This document shows positions 44,346 to 57,426 of a DNA stretch of 64,000 nt, in pieces. Below the pieces are notes generated by a model. The model made no database searches. It saw only the letters and a list, made by a program, of their open reading frames with translations, and was not told where the DNA came from. The translations under genes were made by a program, and so were the position numbers. The DNA comes from Saprospiraceae bacterium (GTDB lineage: Bacteria > Bacteroidota > Bacteroidia > Chitinophagales > Saprospiraceae), in contig JALHRR010000001.1 of assembly GCA_022841345.1 (NCBI GenBank), positions 62,001 to 126,000 of the forward strand. The letters run 5' to 3'. Within the stretch, counting starts at the first letter, position 1, and every line of letters begins with the position of its first letter.

Positions 44346-46856
44346 TCATCGTTTCACGAATTTACCGGAACGGTATAGTGAATTGTCTGGCAAATAGCCG
44401 CAAATAATATAAACACCGGGCAACAAATCTTTAATAATCAAATCCGTCAATCCGGCAGAAGCTTCAGATATTTCTTGCTTCAAAAGTACCTTCCCATTAA
44501 TATCCATAACACTAATACTTCGCAGACCGCAATCGTCACACTGTACAGTAATGCGATCGGAGGATGGGTTTGGAAAAATTTTAAAATCTACTTTGTTGCT
44601 GTCTGCCTGCTCAGGAACCAATGGTGGACTTGAAGTGACCCAGGGTCTGGCTTGTTTGATACTCAGCTTATTACTGCTGGTAATTTTATACTCTATATCC
44701 ATTGCAAAGTCTTCATCGTCCTGCGCATTGTATAATACCTTGAACTCATCATGAATGACAGACAAATAAGTTCTCATCTCATCCAGAAAGGGCTCCTGCA
44801 TCAATAGTGAATCATCAGGGGCAAGACTGGATCGTTGAATGATAATATAATCGTTATTGCTTTGAGAATACCGGTCCAGCAAGATTTCTTCCGGCAAGGC
44901 AGAGTTGACAGGATTGGTAATGAGCTCTTCGCCTAATTGTGAATTTAAATAAAATGTATTATCGGTATTGTATAATGGATCAGTGCTTACGCCTACACCA
45001 TTTACTTTTTCATCTGAGAAGTTTGGATGACACAATACTCCCATAGCAGCGAGCATATGGTTGACTCTGTAAAAATCTCTTTCTTCAAATGCTCTCAAAT
45101 TCCAAAGACTGGAATATACTTGCTTGATAGATTTTGAGATATGGCCTTCACCGGGATGCTGAGTCTTGGAATCATAGAGGCCGGCTCCATTAAAATTGGG
45201 CAGATCCTCATTGTTGGTACTGGATCTGCATCTGATAGGTGTGCCTGAAGGAAATGATTGTTGTAAGGTTGTCAAATCGTCCAGCATCCATGATGGCATG
45301 GATGCATCTTTGATTTTTTTTCTGAAATCTTTTAGTTTGTCATCGCGTACATTCCTGTCAGATTGAAAGGCTGGATTAGCCATCATTTGTTCTGCTTCCC
45401 TGTACAAATCATTGTGCTTCATGAATTCCACATAATAGTAGAAAGGAATACCAAATCCATCCGGAATCACGCCCTCCGGAAATCCAAAAGTGCGCATTGT
45501 GGCCATGTTGGCGCATTTGGCACCAAATGCATCAGACATTGAAAATGAAATCTCAGATAATGGCAGGATGTCTGTGTACTCTAGATTGAGTGCAGGTTGC
45601 TGTTCCTCCACCGGTCTGATGGATTCAAACCAGTCATTCACTTCTTGCAAAGTGGCTTCTCTGATAAAATATTTGTCCTGCTCCACTTTGAAATAAATAT
45701 AATGATCTACCAAATCAGCAATGGAGTCAATCTCAAGAGGTTCGCGTATAAATGCATTTGGAATGTTGTTCTGAATGGCGCGCAGGTTGACATGCGACAG
45801 GGGAGTTTGAATGACGGAGGTTATTATCCCTCCTACCCTTGGTAAGGCATTGGGTAATCCTTCATACAATACAATGTCTCTGGCACCCGGAACTTCTTCT
45901 AATCCCATAACTCTAAAAAACCCAAATCCTTCCGCCGGATGAAGACCCCAATAATCCACTTCTGCATATACATCTGCTTCAAAAAGAACAGGAACTCTGG
46001 AGTTTTGAAACAATATCTCATCTTCAAAATATTGCTCCTCGTTTCTCTCAGTGATGAAGTATGACAAGTTGTTTTTCAGGAACGGCATATTGGAAGCCAG
46101 CAATTCGTGTGTTCTTTGTACTACTTCAAAACTTTGTCCATGTCCATTACTATAATTGAAGGCAAAGGTGCCCAGTGTACCATTGTTGGAAATACTGGTT
46201 GGGTGAAAAATGACCTGTCCTTTTTTAACATCATCACCCGCAAACGGGATACCCACGGCCCGTGCAAAGTCTTCATGGAGATCAAAGCTCTCACTTTTGA
46301 TAAAATATATAATGGGTGATTGGGCATAAAAATCCGTAATAATATATTTCACATATCCCATTCCATTGAGAAATTCGGACCATTGTACCTGATCCTTTTT
46401 GATGGACATTTTTTTGAATGTTGCAAAATTATCAATGACAGCCAGTCCATTATCATGAGCCACCGGGGTTGCACTATTGAAGGGACTTTGTCTGGGAATA
46501 TTCAAGTATTCAGTCATGTCATCTATACCATCCCCATCCGTATCGAAAGGAGTCTGGATGGGATATTCCAGTACCTGATAATGTTCTGTAGGATAATGGC
46601 CTAATTGCTCAGAAATAAACAATTCTCCCTGGGTACCCAGCGTCATGGAAACAGGGATTTCAAATGCAGAGGCAGTATTATGTCTTATTTTCAATACATA
46701 ATACCGGTCTGACCGGGACTGGATTTTCAAAACCGCTTGTCCGTTGGCGTCAATATTATAATCAAGAATGGGTACTGTCTGAGAGGTAGATATTCCGGCA
46801 GAGAATCCCAGAAAGAGGTACAGTAAAATTGAAATGATTTCTATTGGATTTTTCAT
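44346..46856 (-). CDS. Predicted secreted PEP/pyruvate-binding (PPDK-like) protein with T9SS tail
   Basis: 836 aa from ATG 46856, chosen because it starts at a signal peptide (MKNPIEIISILLYLFLGFSA); an ATG at 46904 is rejected. In order: signal peptide, beta-rich region, a Ca-binding-type loop D-T-D-G-D-G-I-D-D, a swivelling phosphohistidine-like domain with QTPLSHVNLRA (His355), then a PPDK_N ATP-grasp domain (FGAKCANMA; IRCRSSTNNEDLPNFNGAGL; DIEYKI...IKQARPW), and a T9SS type A sorting domain (FKIFPNPSSDRITV...GVYIICGY...GKFVKR). Key nucleotide-binding residues look intact, which is odd for an exported protein. Role unknown. Confidence 0.8.
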   Translation of the reverse strand: MKNPIEIISILLYLFLGFSAGISTSQTVPILDYNIDANGQAVLKIQSRSDRYYVLKIRHNTASAFEIPVSMTLGTQGELFISEQLGHYPTEHYQVLEYPIQTPFDTDGDGIDDMTEYLNIPRQSPFNSATPVAHDNGLAVIDNFATFKKMSIKKDQVQWSEFLNGMGYVKYIITDFYAQSPIIYFIKSESFDLHEDFARAVGIPFAGDDVKKGQVIFHPTSISNNGTLGTFAFNYSNGHGQSFEVVQRTHELLASNMPFLKNNLSYFITERNEEQYFEDEILFQNSRVPVLFEADVYAEVDYWGLHPAEGFGFFRVMGLEEVPGARDIVLYEGLPNALPRVGGIITSVIQTPLSHVNLRAIQNNIPNAFIREPLEIDSIADLVDHYIYFKVEQDKYFIREATLQEVNDWFESIRPVEEQQPALNLEYTDILPLSEISFSMSDAFGAKCANMATMRTFGFPEGVIPDGFGIPFYYYVEFMKHNDLYREAEQMMANPAFQSDRNVRDDKLKDFRKKIKDASMPSWMLDDLTTLQQSFPSGTPIRCRSSTNNEDLPNFNGAGLYDSKTQHPGEGHISKSIKQVYSSLWNLRAFEERDFYRVNHMLAAMGVLCHPNFSDEKVNGVGVSTDPLYNTDNTFYLNSQLGEELITNPVNSALPEEILLDRYSQSNNDYIIIQRSSLAPDDSLLMQEPFLDEMRTYLSVIHDEFKVLYNAQDDEDFAMDIEYKITSSNKLSIKQARPWVTSSPPLVPEQADSNKVDFKIFPNPSSDRITVQCDDCGLRSISVMDINGKVLLKQEISEASAGLTDLIIKDLLPGVYIICGYLPDNSLYRSGKFVKR

Positions 46857-47147: not shown

Positions 47148-47207
47148 AAAGTGTAAAGTGAAATGCTCTAAAAGTGTAAAATGAAATGCTCTAAAAGTGT
47201 AAAGTGC
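47148..47207. repeat. 23-bp tandem repeat, 2.6 copies
   Basis: Units at 47148-47170 and 47171-47193 (AAAGTGTAAAGTGAAATGCT then CTA, one mismatch between copies) and a partial third to 47207. Each unit contains two AAAGTG-like half repeats. The gap 46857-47258 otherwise has no gene; the region downstream of the hydrolase (minus strand) starts here. Confidence 0.9.
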
Positions 47208-47258
47208 TTTTCACTTAGACCGTGTTTCCTGTGGAAGAGCGGGGAGATAAGCAGATAT

Positions 47259-51240: not shown

Positions 51241-54200
51241 ATGAAAGCAGCAATACACGTACTGGCAATCCTGACACTATTTGGATCCACCTTCCTATAT
51301 TCCCAACAAGGTGTTCAGTCACAACTTGAAGACAAAATTTCCAAACAAAAGCCGCCTGGCGCCATTGCCCGGGAAGTGGCTAAAAGAAAAGATCAATTTG
51401 CCAATATTCAGAAAGAATCTGTTTTCAGGACCATTCATTCTCAGGATGTAAGGAGAGACCTGAGACAAAGTATTCCCACAGCATTATTACTGGAGCCTGA
51501 TTTTGAAAAAATAAAACCCTCCCTTCGTAGCAAACCGGAAGTTTTATTGCTTGAACTGCCATTTGCAAATAATCAGACAATTACACTGGAATTATATGCC
51601 CAAAGCCCATTCACTTCAGAATACAAACTGAAGACCTCTGATGGAAGAATTTTCAGCGCTCCGAATCAGATTCATTACAGGGGAATAGTCAAAGGCCATA
51701 CCGGTTCATTAGCCGGTATTTCTATCTCAGGCAATGAAATTTCCGGAATTATTTCAACTCAGGAGAATGGTTCCTGGGTACTTGGGCGCGTGGAGGATGA
51801 AGAGACCTTGCACGTATTGTTTCCCGGGGATGATATTCCACTGGCACCCGGATTTGAATGTCATGCTCCTGAAACGAAGCTTGCGATACTGCCGGAAGAC
51901 CTGGAACCAACCAGTAGCCGAGCCCTTACAGATTGCATCGGACTTTATCTGGAAGTAGATTTTAATATGTATGTAAATCGCTCCAGCAATGTCAACAATG
52001 TGAATACCTGGATAAATTCTGTATTTAACAATGTCGGTATTATTTATGCCAACGAACAAATTAATCTTCAGATCAATGAAGTATTTGTTTGGACAACACC
52101 TGATTCTTACAGTACCAATACCGAAACTGCACTTAATCAATTTGGAGCGGCTACTCCAACATTTGATGGCAATTTGGCCCATTTAATCCAATTGGCAAAT
52201 GGTACTTTGGCGGGAATTGCCTGGGTGGATATATTATGTGGCCCCCAGCAGTTTAAATACGGGGTGAGCAGGGTACAAAGCAACTTTCAAAACTATCCTA
52301 CATACAACTGGACAGTGTTGGTGCTAACACATGAGTTGGGGCATAATATTGGTTCTCCTCATACACATTCCTGTACCTGGCCCGGAGGAGCGATAGATAA
52401 TTGTTTTCAGGTAGAAGGCAATTGCAGTCCCGGACCTGCTCCGGGGCCGGGAGGTGGTACTATTATGAGCTATTGTCATTTATCAGGAGGTCCCGGCATT
52501 AATTTCGCAAATGGTTTCGGAACCTTGCCGGGAAATCGAATCCGGAATCGAGTTTCAAATGGTAATTGCCTGGAAGAATGCGGAGCCGGCGATCCATGCA
52601 CAGGATTAAGCGCTGCTTCCACACCCACGGGGACATCATGTGGTCAAAATAATGGCAGTATATCCATTTCTCCCAGCGGTGGAACTGCCCCCTATACAAC
52701 CAGTATCGGAGGAAGCTTCTCCAGTCAGACCGTGTATAATAATCTAAGTTCAGGAAATTACACAGTCACTGTCAGAGATGCCAATAGTTGCGAAACCTCT
52801 TCAAGTGTAGTAGTCGCAGCATCCAGTGGTATCAATCTTAATCTGAATATTCAGGCAACTACTTGCGGGTTAAATAATGGAAGCATTCAAGTCTCGCCTT
52901 CAGGAGGACAAGCACCTTATTCATACAATATTGGTTTTGGAAATGTTACGAATAATTTTTTCTCAAATTTGAGCAGCGGTTCCTATACAGTCACAGTAAC
53001 ATCCAATAATGGTTGCACTGCAACCGCAAATGCAGTAGTCAATAGTTCAAATGCCATCTCAGCTTCTGCTGTTGCCCAGCCTACTACTTGCGGACTCAGC
53101 AATGGAAGTATCAGCATAACGCCGTCAGGTGGGGGAACACCCTATCTATATGATATCGGAAATGGCCCGGGAGGAAGTGCAACTTTCAATAACCTGGCAT
53201 CAGGTACCTATACGGTCACGGTCACAAATGTAAATGCATGCACCACCACAGCTTCTGCTACAGTGGCTGCTTCCCAGGCGATTACTTTGACAACAAATAT
53301 CACGCATACAACCTGCAATCTGAGCAATGGATCCATTACAATTAATGCATCAAATACTACGGGTGCTGTGCAGTATTCGGTCAATGGAAACACCCAAAGC
53401 ACTAATGTTTTTTCTAACCTGAGCTCAGGAAACTATAACGTGATGGTAACTGATGCTGCAGGCTGCACCAAGACCAATGTAAGTGTGGTAAATGCCTCAA
53501 CTGCTTTAAATATTTCAACACAAACTACCAATGCCAATTGCGGACTCAATCAGGGAACTATCACTGTTAACGTATCCTCCGGGACCGCACCTTACTCTTA
53601 TAATTTTGGTACAGGCAACCAGGCCAGCAATACAAAAACCAATCTGGCTGCAGGAACTTATACGATAACAGTAACTGATGCTTCATCCTGCACCAAGACA
53701 GCGCAGGCAGTCGTACAAAGTACACCTGCTGTCAGTTTTACCGCTCAAACTACAGCGGCATTCTGTGGGTCTAATAACGGAACAATCACAATAAATGCTA
53801 CCGGAGGAAATGGAATCTTTACCTACAGCATTGGGGGTTCCTTTGTTTCAACCTCTATATTTAACAATTTGGCGGCCTCAACCTATACGGTTACTGTTCA
53901 GGATAGCAATGGGTGTACCATTTCTCAGTCAGTTTTAGTCAGTTTAGTCAGTAATTTATCCGGCACAATTGCAGTTACAGGCAATATTACTTGCCCCGGT
54001 GGAAGTAATGGAGCGCTTCAGGTGAATATTTCAGGAGGCTTACCGACATACAATATAACATGGTCCAACGGCCAGACAAGTGCCTCCATCACTAATCTCA
54101 GTGCCGGAACTTATACGGTTACAGTTACAGATGCTTTAGGTTGCCAAAAAACTTCATCTCAAACTATATCGCAACCACCACCTTTTTCAATCAATCCAGC

Positions 54201-57200
54201 TTCCAGCCCTGCTTCCTGTTTTGGATCATCTACTGGCTCAGTTACTGTAAATGTAACCGGTGCCACGCCGCCTTATCAGTATTCATTAAATGGAGGCAAC
54301 TTCCAAACATCCAACCAATTTTCTAACCTAAGTGCAGGTACATATTCTGTTACCGTCAGAGATGCTTCACAGTGTACATCCTCAGCTTCAGTGGTCGTTT
54401 CTCAAAATGCTGCTATAACAGCCAGTACTCAAGCCACAAATGTGTTATGTTTCGGACAGTCCAATGGAAGTATTTCTGTTACAGCTTCTGGTGGTGTTTC
54501 GCCATATCAGTATGCAATTAATAGTGGAAGTTTCCAGGGAAGCAACACATTCCTGGGCTTGCCGGTTGGAACCTATCAGATTACAGTAAAAGATGCCAAT
54601 AATTGTACTTTGAATGTTTCGCAAGCTATTTCCCAACCGTCTGCTATTTCTGCAACAGCTTCAACCCAGTCAGTAGTTTGTTTTGGTCAGGCCAATGGAT
54701 CCATCACGATTAATGCTTCCGGCGGTACTGCCCCTCTCCAATATAATTTAAATGGTGGGGTATTTCAAAGCCAGAATTCATTCAATAACCTGAGCGCAGG
54801 TAATTATAATGTTATTGTTAAAGATGCCAATAATTGTCAGTTTCCTCTGTCTGTGACAGTAACACAACCAACAGCGATCCAAGTAAATGCTCAATCCGTT
54901 CCCACTTCCTGCTCCAGTTCATCCAACGGAAGCATTACCCTTCTTGCCACAGGAGGAAATGGGCCATATCAATACAGCATCAATGGAGGTACGCCAAATT
55001 CAAGCGGAGTTTTTCCGGGCCTCAGTTCGGGAGTTTACACTTATCTGGTAACCGGAGCTAATCAGTGCAGTGCTTCAGGTAATGTTACAGTCAGCAGCCC
55101 TGCAGTTTTGAATATCCAGTTGACCGGCAATAACGTAAGTTGCTTCGGCGGAAATAATGGAGTGATCAACGCCAGTGCCAGTGGTGGAACAGCTCCCTAC
55201 CAATATGCCATTAATAGTGGAAATTTTGGAAGCTCAGCCAATTTTACAGGTCTCAGCGCCGGCACCTACAATTTGCAAATACAGGATGTGAATGGATGTC
55301 TTGCTTCCAACACTTATACAATTACACAGCCTGCAGCAATTAGTCTCAATGTAAATGCTACAAATGTCACTTGCTTCGCTCAGTCCAATGGTTCGGTGAA
55401 TGCTCAGGCCCAGGGGGGATCATCAGGCTTCCAATATATCTGGTCAAATGGTGCTTCAGGATCTTCTGTTCCAAATGTCTCTGCAGGAACATACTCAGTA
55501 ACTGCAACAGATTCGAATGGATGCAGCGCTACAGCAGTAGTTGCCGTGACGCAACCGGCAGCACTAATAGTAAGTGTTCAATCTACTCCTTTAGGTGGCT
55601 TGGGTGCTTCAGACGGCACAGCTACTGCTACTGTCACAGGCGGAACTTCCGGATACAATTACATGTGGTCCAATGGTCAGATCTCTTCTTCGATTCAAAA
55701 TCTGCCTGCAGGCACTTATAATGTTACGGTTACTGATGCAAATAATTGCACGGCGAGTGGATCCGTTATAATTGCTCCTTTCAACTGTATTCTGACAGCT
55801 GCGGCCCAGAATATAGTCCCGGTTTCATGTTTTGGATTGCAAAACGGAGGAGCGACAATCGTCCCTTCCAATGGGCAATCACCATATACTTTCTTATGGC
55901 CGGGTGGACAATCAACAGCTACCGTAAATAATCTTGCTGCTGGAAACTATGCAGTTACAGTAAGTGATGCTGCTTCCTGCCAGCAAGTTGTAAATATTTC
56001 TATTTCGCAACCTCAGCAATTGGAAATAGCACTGGCTGCAACTGATGTGAGTTGTTTTGGTGGAAATAATGGAACAATAAATGCCCTTGCCTCCGGTGGA
56101 ACAGCTCCATATACCTACAGTATCAATGGTACAGACTTTCAGACTTCAGGAGCATTCACAGGACTTTTGGCGGGTAACTATACTGTAACTATCAAAGATG
56201 CAGGATTATGTAGCAGGACTTTTGCTGCAAGCATTGGATCACCCGTCGCTTTGGCCATGCAATTGCAATCAGACACGATTCTTTGCCATGGAGCCTCAAC
56301 TGGTAACGCTGTATCAGTGGTTACCGGCGGTCTGGCACCGTATTCCTATGTCTGGTCAAATGGCAGTCAGGCAGCCAATCTTCAGAGTGTAAATGCAAAT
56401 TCCTATGGACTGACTGTAACTGATTCTAAAGGATGTACAATCACTTCTTCAGTGACCATTACCCAGAATGATTCCTTGTATCTCGTAACTCAAATCACCC
56501 AACCTACTGCAGAGATTCTTAACAATGGCAGAATAGAAATCAATCCTCTGGGGGGTAATGGTCCATATTCTATTCTTTGGAATAATCAAAGCACAGAAAA
56601 AATTCTTACAGATCTGTTACCGGGAACCTATCAGGTAATTGTAACTGATGCAAATGGCTGCACCCTGATCAATAATATTGTCCTTACTGATCCCACCTGT
56701 GCTTTGAATGTAGAATTACTGGACTCTTCTCAAATTACTTGTCACGGTGGTTCTGATGGCAGCATTGAAATTGAGGTAGAAGGAACCTCAGTTCCTTATG
56801 ACATTATGTGGTCCAATGGAATGCAAACATCCAGTTTAGAAGGCTTGAGCGCAGGGATATATATAATTTCAGTGGAGGACGCGCGGGGCTGCATAGACAC
56901 ACTAAGCATAGCCTTGACCCAACCAGATCCTATTGCGCTGGAAGCTATTGAAGGTCCTGAGGAAGCAGTAACCCAAAATCAGGTTATCTACAGCACTAAT
57001 TTACTTAGCGGACTAACTTATGAATGGACTTGTTCAAACGGACAAATATTCACAGGTACCCAGCCAAATGAAATTACAGTGGTTTGGGTACAGGCCGGTG
57101 AGCAGACAATTGGTGTTAAAGTTACGGATGACAATGGATGTACTGCGACTCAGACTATGGAAGTTTTTGTAGGTACTAACTCGACTCATTATGAAGAGAT

Positions 57201-57426
57201 GATTTCAGGAATTAAAGTCTTCCCAAATCCTTTTACAGCCACCCTTTGGATACAATCTGAGTTTTCATTAACCAGACCAATATCCATTCATTTGATGGAC
57301 CTCCATGGGAAAGTGCTTTGTACCGGCGTGCTGACGGATCATGCAGAATGGAATTTGGAGCATCTTCCTTCAGGAATGTACCTGCTGAAAGCTGAAGACA
57401 GATATTTCAAAATTGTGAAACAGTAA
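51241..57426 (+). CDS. Giant secreted metalloprotease with 19 SprB-type repeats and T9SS tail
   Basis: 2061 aa. Order: signal peptide (1-22, FLYSQQ), a propeptide-like region to about 220, a reprolysin-like (M12) zinc protease with HELGHNIGSPH (364-374, HExxHxxGxxH) and disulfide-rich loops after it, then about residues 455-1890 as a string of ~60-80-residue SprB repeats. By eye I count 19, each with C-x-G-x-x-N-G-x-I, G-G-x-x-P-Y-x-Y, N-L-x-x-G-x-Y-x-V-x-V-x-D and a late Cys. A PKD-like domain (about 1910-1985) and a T9SS type A sorting domain (IKVFPNPFTATLWI...GMYLLKAEDR) end it. Probably a surface adhesin-protease, possibly in gliding or prey/host contact. Confidence 0.9.
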   Translation: MKAAIHVLAILTLFGSTFLYSQQGVQSQLEDKISKQKPPGAIAREVAKRKDQFANIQKESVFRTIHSQDVRRDLRQSIPTALLLEPDFEKIKPSLRSKPEVLLLELPFANNQTITLELYAQSPFTSEYKLKTSDGRIFSAPNQIHYRGIVKGHTGSLAGISISGNEISGIISTQENGSWVLGRVEDEETLHVLFPGDDIPLAPGFECHAPETKLAILPEDLEPTSSRALTDCIGLYLEVDFNMYVNRSSNVNNVNTWINSVFNNVGIIYANEQINLQINEVFVWTTPDSYSTNTETALNQFGAATPTFDGNLAHLIQLANGTLAGIAWVDILCGPQQFKYGVSRVQSNFQNYPTYNWTVLVLTHELGHNIGSPHTHSCTWPGGAIDNCFQVEGNCSPGPAPGPGGGTIMSYCHLSGGPGINFANGFGTLPGNRIRNRVSNGNCLEECGAGDPCTGLSAASTPTGTSCGQNNGSISISPSGGTAPYTTSIGGSFSSQTVYNNLSSGNYTVTVRDANSCETSSSVVVAASSGINLNLNIQATTCGLNNGSIQVSPSGGQAPYSYNIGFGNVTNNFFSNLSSGSYTVTVTSNNGCTATANAVVNSSNAISASAVAQPTTCGLSNGSISITPSGGGTPYLYDIGNGPGGSATFNNLASGTYTVTVTNVNACTTTASATVAASQAITLTTNITHTTCNLSNGSITINASNTTGAVQYSVNGNTQSTNVFSNLSSGNYNVMVTDAAGCTKTNVSVVNASTALNISTQTTNANCGLNQGTITVNVSSGTAPYSYNFGTGNQASNTKTNLAAGTYTITVTDASSCTKTAQAVVQSTPAVSFTAQTTAAFCGSNNGTITINATGGNGIFTYSIGGSFVSTSIFNNLAASTYTVTVQDSNGCTISQSVLVSLVSNLSGTIAVTGNITCPGGSNGALQVNISGGLPTYNITWSNGQTSASITNLSAGTYTVTVTDALGCQKTSSQTISQPPPFSINPASSPASCFGSSTGSVTVNVTGATPPYQYSLNGGNFQTSNQFSNLSAGTYSVTVRDASQCTSSASVVVSQNAAITASTQATNVLCFGQSNGSISVTASGGVSPYQYAINSGSFQGSNTFLGLPVGTYQITVKDANNCTLNVSQAISQPSAISATASTQSVVCFGQANGSITINASGGTAPLQYNLNGGVFQSQNSFNNLSAGNYNVIVKDANNCQFPLSVTVTQPTAIQVNAQSVPTSCSSSSNGSITLLATGGNGPYQYSINGGTPNSSGVFPGLSSGVYTYLVTGANQCSASGNVTVSSPAVLNIQLTGNNVSCFGGNNGVINASASGGTAPYQYAINSGNFGSSANFTGLSAGTYNLQIQDVNGCLASNTYTITQPAAISLNVNATNVTCFAQSNGSVNAQAQGGSSGFQYIWSNGASGSSVPNVSAGTYSVTATDSNGCSATAVVAVTQPAALIVSVQSTPLGGLGASDGTATATVTGGTSGYNYMWSNGQISSSIQNLPAGTYNVTVTDANNCTASGSVIIAPFNCILTAAAQNIVPVSCFGLQNGGATIVPSNGQSPYTFLWPGGQSTATVNNLAAGNYAVTVSDAASCQQVVNISISQPQQLEIALAATDVSCFGGNNGTINALASGGTAPYTYSINGTDFQTSGAFTGLLAGNYTVTIKDAGLCSRTFAASIGSPVALAMQLQSDTILCHGASTGNAVSVVTGGLAPYSYVWSNGSQAANLQSVNANSYGLTVTDSKGCTITSSVTITQNDSLYLVTQITQPTAEILNNGRIEINPLGGNGPYSILWNNQSTEKILTDLLPGTYQVIVTDANGCTLINNIVLTDPTCALNVELLDSSQITCHGGSDGSIEIEVEGTSVPYDIMWSNGMQTSSLEGLSAGIYIISVEDARGCIDTLSIALTQPDPIALEAIEGPEEAVTQNQVIYSTNLLSGLTYEWTCSNGQIFTGTQPNEITVVWVQAGEQTIGVKVTDDNGCTATQTMEVFVGTNSTHYEEMISGIKVFPNPFTATLWIQSEFSLTRPISIHLMDLHGKVLCTGVLTDHAEWNLEHLPSGMYLLKAEDRYFKIVKQ

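Follow-up and report, generated by a model that had tools for sequence, protein, structure and literature searches.

Phosphohistidine-swivel dikinases have been described from ATP-rich places (cytosol, plastid). The question raised by this locus of a Saprospiraceae bacterium is what a protein with the ATP-grasp and swivel domains of such an enzyme would do once it has left the cell. The window, i.e. the whole stretch of 64,000 nucleotides that was analysed, encodes the protein on the minus strand, a detail not given in the first-pass annotation, with an ATG start codon at 46856 and a TGA stop codon at 44348-44346 (Table 1). Homology searches found relatives that make up a conserved family around the 836-aa open reading frame (ORF), which is therefore not a chance ORF.

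Table 1. Position in the window of the coding sequence and of the domains, motifs and residues assigned to the predicted protein (residue numbers in brackets).
Feature	Position	Strand	Basis or remark
Complete coding sequence, predicted exported phosphohistidine dikinase-like protein	44346..46856	minus	836 aa
Predicted signal peptide (about residues 1-26)	46779..46856	minus	inspection and hydropathy only; hydrophobic core follows Lys2
N-terminal beta-rich module (27-100)	46557..46778	minus	model secondary structure and alignment
DTDGDGIDDMTE, Ca-binding-like DxDxDG motif (105-116)	46509..46544	minus	sequence
Family-specific domain (137-298), candidate acceptor-binding	45963..46448	minus	family alignment
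Swivelling phosphohistidine domain (299-401)	45654..45962	minus	VIA-align and hhalign
His355, predicted phosphohistidine	45792..45794	minus	conserved in 40/40; aligned on PEPS/PPDK catalytic His
PPDK_N ATP-grasp domain (426-741)	44634..45581	minus	Pfam and VIA-align
Lys447, equivalent of RPH/PPDK Lys22	45516..45518	minus	alignment to 2ols/5hv6; 40/40
Arg544, equivalent of RPH Arg117	45225..45227	minus	alignment; 40/40
Glu722, Gln735, Arg737, Mg2+/ATP motif E...QxR	44646..44693	minus	alignment
T9SS type A sorting domain (760-836)	44349..44579	minus	PF18962 E 3.3e-7; TIGR04183 above cut-off

The signal peptide and T9SS sorting domain proposed earlier for the two ends of the protein are both found. 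The N-terminus reads MKNPIEIISILLYLFLGFSAGISTSQ, recognised as a signal peptide by hydropathy only, and the Por_Secre_tail match covers residues 760-818. SprA (2321 bits), the translocon protein of the T9SS, is encoded in the same genome along with further T9SS-tailed ORFs, so that the signal peptide, the C-terminal sorting domain and the secretion system expected for a T9SS cargo are present together. Across four domain layouts, all intact full-length Bacteroidota members possess a hydrophobic N-terminal segment or a lipobox. Hydropathy alone is weak, as 47% of the neighbouring ORFs longer than 200 aa also pass this crude cut; the case for predicted export is the consistency of the N-terminal signals across members together with the T9SS tails. 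The tail itself is the predicted address of one clade, with other branches predicted to be exported without it. The route through T9SS proposed earlier is thus predicted for this clade and not for the family in general.

The PPDK_N domain was matched at residues 443-743 with an E-value of 1.1e-22, over the Pfam cut-off, and was found in 40 of 40 family members; the only other PPDK_N protein of the genome is a normal 906-aa PPDK-type frame. We modelled residues 25-746 with AlphaFold2 from 40 sequences (pLDDT 88.7, pTM 0.78; model residue n is protein residue n+24), replacing an earlier model from 12 sequences with a pLDDT of 76.5. In VIA-align, model residues 402-717 align with rifampin phosphotransferase (RPH) 5hv1 (Z 28.3, rmsd 2.6, 292 residues) and with PEP synthase 2ols (Z 28.3, rmsd 2.4, 290 residues). 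Model residues 275-377 align with residues 754-867 of RPH 5fbu (Z 10.4, rmsd 2.7, 97 residues), a region which includes the RPH swivel domain at 764-863 (PMC4844700), and the same domain, 299-401 of the protein, aligns with PTS enzyme I with a Z of 9.3. His355 is located at the start of a helix in the model. Fold matches to the model in BFVD were weak or covered only part of it.

By sequence the swivel domain is below the Pfam cut-offs, with GWD1_pHisD at an E-value of 0.087 and 12.9 bits against a cut-off of 27. This is the sole Pfam swivel model that responds in the family, weakly in 14 of 40 members and with a best E-value of 0.012. Comparing the family swivel with a PEPS/PPDK swivel set in hhalign gave an E-value of 0.0016 and a probability of 16% in a single comparison, and in this alignment His355 falls on the PEPS/PPDK catalytic His. 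Three near-identical PEPS sequences gave no match to the swivel profile; it was the broader PEPS/PPDK set that gave one. Furthermore, one intermediate ORF (G024:C29) is matched by both PF00391 (E-value 5.1e-4) and the family swivel profile (E-value 4.0e-7), and this bridge strengthens the swivel identity. Fold, profile and intermediate sequence all point to residues 299-401 as a swivel domain with a predicted catalytic His, placed before the PPDK_N ATP-grasp domain as the first-pass annotation had it. Together with the Mg-ATP residues, these domains place the predicted protein in the ATP-grasp/phosphohistidine dikinase superfamily (PPDK, PEPS, RPH, GWD). The order had also been called reversed with respect to PEP synthase, which is correct, but it is not unusual in the superfamily, being shared by plant GWD and by Streptomyces homologues.

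The motifs S-S-T-N-x-E-D, Q-A-R-P and TPLSH, named before, are all present in the ORF. The alignment to 2ols and RPH further pairs Glu722 with Glu297 and assigns Gln735 and Arg737 to the QxR motif. These three residues are kept in 39 of 39 covered rows of the 40-member family, and His355, Lys447 and Arg544 in every member. The loss of the ATP-binding Lys, Arg or Glu would have spoken against the PPDK-like reading; they are retained in the family alignment. Invariant columns number 56 among the 581 well-filled ones. In RPH, the K22A substitution abolishes activity, R117A and T136V abolish rifampin phosphorylation, and Glu297 coordinates Mg2+, with E297A still active (PMC4844700). RPH Thr136, an alpha-phosphate contact, is replaced conservatively by the invariant Ser563. 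The catalytic His and the Mg-ATP residues persist even in members with only about 25% identity, and the ATP-grasp site varies no more than the swivel domain does. As the catalytic residues are present wherever covered in the 40 members, decay to a binding protein appears unlikely, which weakens the earlier option of a structural or binding protein. Judged from the sequences and the model, predicted export and an intact catalytic anatomy both have strong support.

On the N-terminal side, the beta-rich module is seen only in the T9SS clade, its Planctomycetota member included. Within this clade the DxDxDG motif hardly varies; it may bind calcium. Domain 137-298 is common to both main exported subfamilies and to cytosolic Streptomyces homologues, with Lys170, His194 and Phe197 invariant. 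A Pfam search with 137-298 alone gave no match, and no standalone copy was found in 298 genomes. Its conservation and its invariable fusion to the swivel/ATP-grasp pair make this domain the likely acceptor-binding part. The VIA-align list was dominated by the ATP-grasp domain, and for this reason we make no claim of a new fold.

Several known identities were tried for the protein. Outside the ATP-grasp domain and the tail there was no Pfam or NCBIfam match to a PEP/pyruvate-binding barrel, and nothing follows the T9SS tail in the chain. Lacking this barrel, the protein is no PEP synthase; its NCBIfam PEPS score is 65, where the cut-off is 598. Nothing ties it to PEP either, which had been named before as a normal need of enzymes with this chemistry. 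Rifampin phosphotransferase was rejected as well: RIF_Ptrans_rph scored 40.9 bits against 999, on the ATP-grasp part only, the domain order differs, and Pfam and NCBIfam searches of the protein found no rifampin-binding domain. The label glucan water dikinase was not given because the GWD1_pHisD match is below the cut-off; moreover, no CBM45 or CBM20 was found in the Pfam search of the protein.

At the thresholds used, protein and profile searches detected the gene in 6 of 60 relatives; for the order the count was 46 of 348 genomes and for the phylum 14 of 395, the latter including some plain PEP synthases (family f43). It is absent from the other congeneric genome searched (n = 1), and the distribution is patchy. 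Homologues are located on contigs of Saprospiraceae, Chitinophagales, Flavobacteriales and Planctomycetota, and no relatives were found among viral contigs. The survey for the same architecture and its neighbours, suggested earlier, returned four exported layouts and no gene neighbour conserved across the family. Proteins of layout (a), with 830-1570 aa, combine the N-terminal beta module, the DxDxDG motif, the core and the T9SS tail, and some of them carry CARDB, SprB or LTD domains between core and tail. Layout (b) proteins, 625-670 aa long, carry a signal peptide or lipobox; they are tail-less and terminate at QAR(P). In layout (c), of about 813 aa, a CarboxypepD_reg-like module (below cut-off) is found at the N-terminus. 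Layout (d) is a distant family whose proteins, of 960-1000 aa, have a different N-terminal region and the same swivel-then-ATP-grasp order, its motifs being VSHVQLLARNLGIPNAV in the swivel followed by RSDTNMEDL and QVRP in the ATP-grasp domain. All its members (L152-L155, L157, L032 and L034) have a hydrophobic N-terminal export signal, and they come from the same bacterial family as well as from a second one in the phylum.

In the tree, whose deep branches are in part long and uncertain, the T9SS members form one clade with support 100/99, a nested Planctomycetota member included. This tail-less protein, L019, branches beside L079 with support 98/96, which suggests a transfer with loss of the T9SS tail. 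Another Planctomycetota ORF, L020, has 317 aa, is missing the swivel along with most of the ATP-grasp domain, and resembles a decayed copy. Two tandem T9SS-type paralogues are found in genome G673 (L071:5504-10641), with a third copy elsewhere in that genome.

We inspected 3-4 genes on each side in about 48 relatives and saw neither a partner gene conserved across the family nor a conserved nucleotidase neighbour; shared synteny was seen only within close relatives. At two loci only (L014:2994-3533 and L017:7280-7828), an exported His_Phos_1 protein of the histidine-phosphatase superfamily is encoded directly upstream. In the window, the co-directional upstream gene, 402 bases away, encodes an alpha/beta hydrolase whose N-terminus is lipobox-like. 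The intergenic sequence upstream of the gene contains three tandem copies of the 23-base unit AAAGTGTAAAGTGAAATGCTCTA at 47148-47216. The window also encodes, at 51241-57426 (+), a T9SS-tailed M12/reprolysin-like metalloprotease of 2061 aa with about 18 SprB repeats.

It seems to us an even call, from sequences and model, that the protein is an exported dikinase active on a specific surface or extracellular acceptor. It would cross the inner membrane via Sec, fold in the periplasm and pass outside through the T9SS, to be surface-attached or secreted. There the ATP-grasp domain would bind Mg-ATP, the swivel would dock and the beta-phosphate would pass to His355, with release of AMP and Pi. The swivel would then turn to domain 137-298 holding the acceptor, which would become phosphorylated as rifampin is by RPH and glucan by GWD, for a net reaction of ATP + acceptor + water -> phospho-acceptor + AMP + Pi. 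We infer that the exported protein is catalytically active and that its acceptor is outside the cell, presumably a glycan, a surface protein or a small molecule. The difficulty is the supply of ATP. Extracellular ATP is 10-30 nM per OD in most cultures and up to 255 (PMC3882102), scarce beside the 8.4 uM Km of RPH for ATP (PMC4844700), which makes the systematic export of an ATP-dependent enzyme strange. Local sources such as lysis, prey or surface-bound debris could raise this level, and the enzyme would use released or prey/lysate ATP. Further points against an exported dikinase are the swivel under the Pfam cut-off, the patchy occurrence in the order and a gene neighbourhood that gives no conserved pointer to the acceptor.

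There are also other readings of the protein. Unlikely, although first among these alternatives, is an exported nucleotide scavenger that uses water as final acceptor (ATP -> AMP + 2 Pi) to supply phosphate and nucleosides for uptake, making no specific phospho-product. It would agree with the retention of all ATP and His residues, with the depletion of extracellular ATP by bacteria (PMC3882102) and with the lack of a conserved acceptor-linked neighbour, but a two-step swivel machine with the conserved domain 137-298 would be costly for mere hydrolysis, and a nucleotidase neighbour is not conserved. We rank next, and also as improbable, an action in the periplasm or during secretion, for example the modification of an envelope polymer, the T9SS tail then being the final anchor. 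Since sister branches with a lipobox or signal peptide are tail-less, the work need not take place outside the outer membrane; against this, one clade keeps the tail throughout, and the periplasm is not known to be rich in ATP either.

Behind both we place a surface protein, adhesive or nucleotide-binding, that is built on a dikinase scaffold but is catalytically dead. The CARDB, SprB and LTD domains inserted by relatives between enzyme and tail are typical of surface adhesins, and ATP is scarce outside cells, but against this doubtful reading every member, distant ones included, keeps the catalytic His together with each of the Mg-ATP residues. Least probable is a reverse dikinase, or a phosphotransferase between extracellular phospho-compounds, with a main donor other than ATP. 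HpeH without its ATP-grasp partner moves phosphate from 4-phosphoacetophenone to acetovanillone (PMC12167813), and thus a His domain can work without ATP; the exported phosphatase at L014 and L017 would also fit, but it neighbours these two loci only, and the ATP-grasp site is no less strictly conserved than the swivel.

Returning to the exported dikinase, the systematic export of a family that is conserved and catalytically intact would mean that bacteria carry out ATP-dependent phosphorylation at their cell surface or beyond it. The extracellular kinases Fam20C and CotH illustrate that such a reaction can be of importance away from the cytosol; an exported dikinase, if true, would differ from them in fold and mechanism. 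We found no papers on a T9SS-exported or secreted dikinase in the subset of open-access literature that was searched. Members of the family probably go by the annotation 'PEP/pyruvate-binding' alone, like the Streptomyces homologues, and are thereby hidden. Tentatively, and with the balance somewhat against it, Bacteroidota and some Planctomycetota might possess an undescribed class of extracellular phosphohistidine dikinases, an outside counterpart of GWD and RPH that uses environmental or prey ATP on acceptors beyond the cell and that emerged or spread in at least two exported families.

Among the known dikinases, PEP synthase and PPDK (2OLS, 1KBL) share the ATP-grasp fold (Z 28.3 and 20.0) and the active-site residues, whereas the protein here is without the PEP/pyruvate barrel, has its His before the ATP-grasp domain and is predicted to be exported. 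RPH (5FBS/5HV1) is the best fold match for both ATP-grasp and swivel, and equivalents of its Lys22, Arg117, Glu297 and His are kept; unlike the protein here it is cytosolic, with the order ATP-grasp, rifampin-binding and swivel. HpeHI and phenylphosphate synthase also act on a non-pyruvate acceptor, and the ATP-grasp domain of HpeI (9GOJ) aligns with a Z of 22.1 and an rmsd of 5.4, but they are two split, cytosolic proteins with phenolic acceptors.

GWD and PWD resemble the protein in combining an N-terminal acceptor-binding part with a catalytic His and a C-terminal PPDK_N-like dikinase domain, and its GAGLYDS and LSHVNLRA may resemble plant GWD motifs. They differ in being plastid enzymes with N-terminal starch-binding domains, CBM45 among them and CBM20 in some, whereas the protein here is predicted to be exported and has a different N-terminal domain. 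In potato GWD the essential His992 is in the phosphohistidine domain (PMC12892837) and in plant GWD the dikinase domains are at the C-terminus (PMC6805951); the His domain here likewise precedes a C-terminal ATP-grasp domain. The same order of a 137-298-like domain, swivel (PLSH) and ATP-grasp is found in two plasmid-encoded Streptomyces proteins (WP_331760287.1 and WP_142270066.1; E-value 5e-53 against the family profile), labelled 'PEP/pyruvate-binding domain-containing protein'. No signal peptide was seen in them, so the three-domain architecture is not tied to export. In a Streptomyces plasmid cassette conserved in two strains (L118:6658-11338 and L119:6241-11068), the dikinase homologue is encoded between an ATP-grasp ligase and an MFS transporter, and the cassette looks like a small-molecule pathway.
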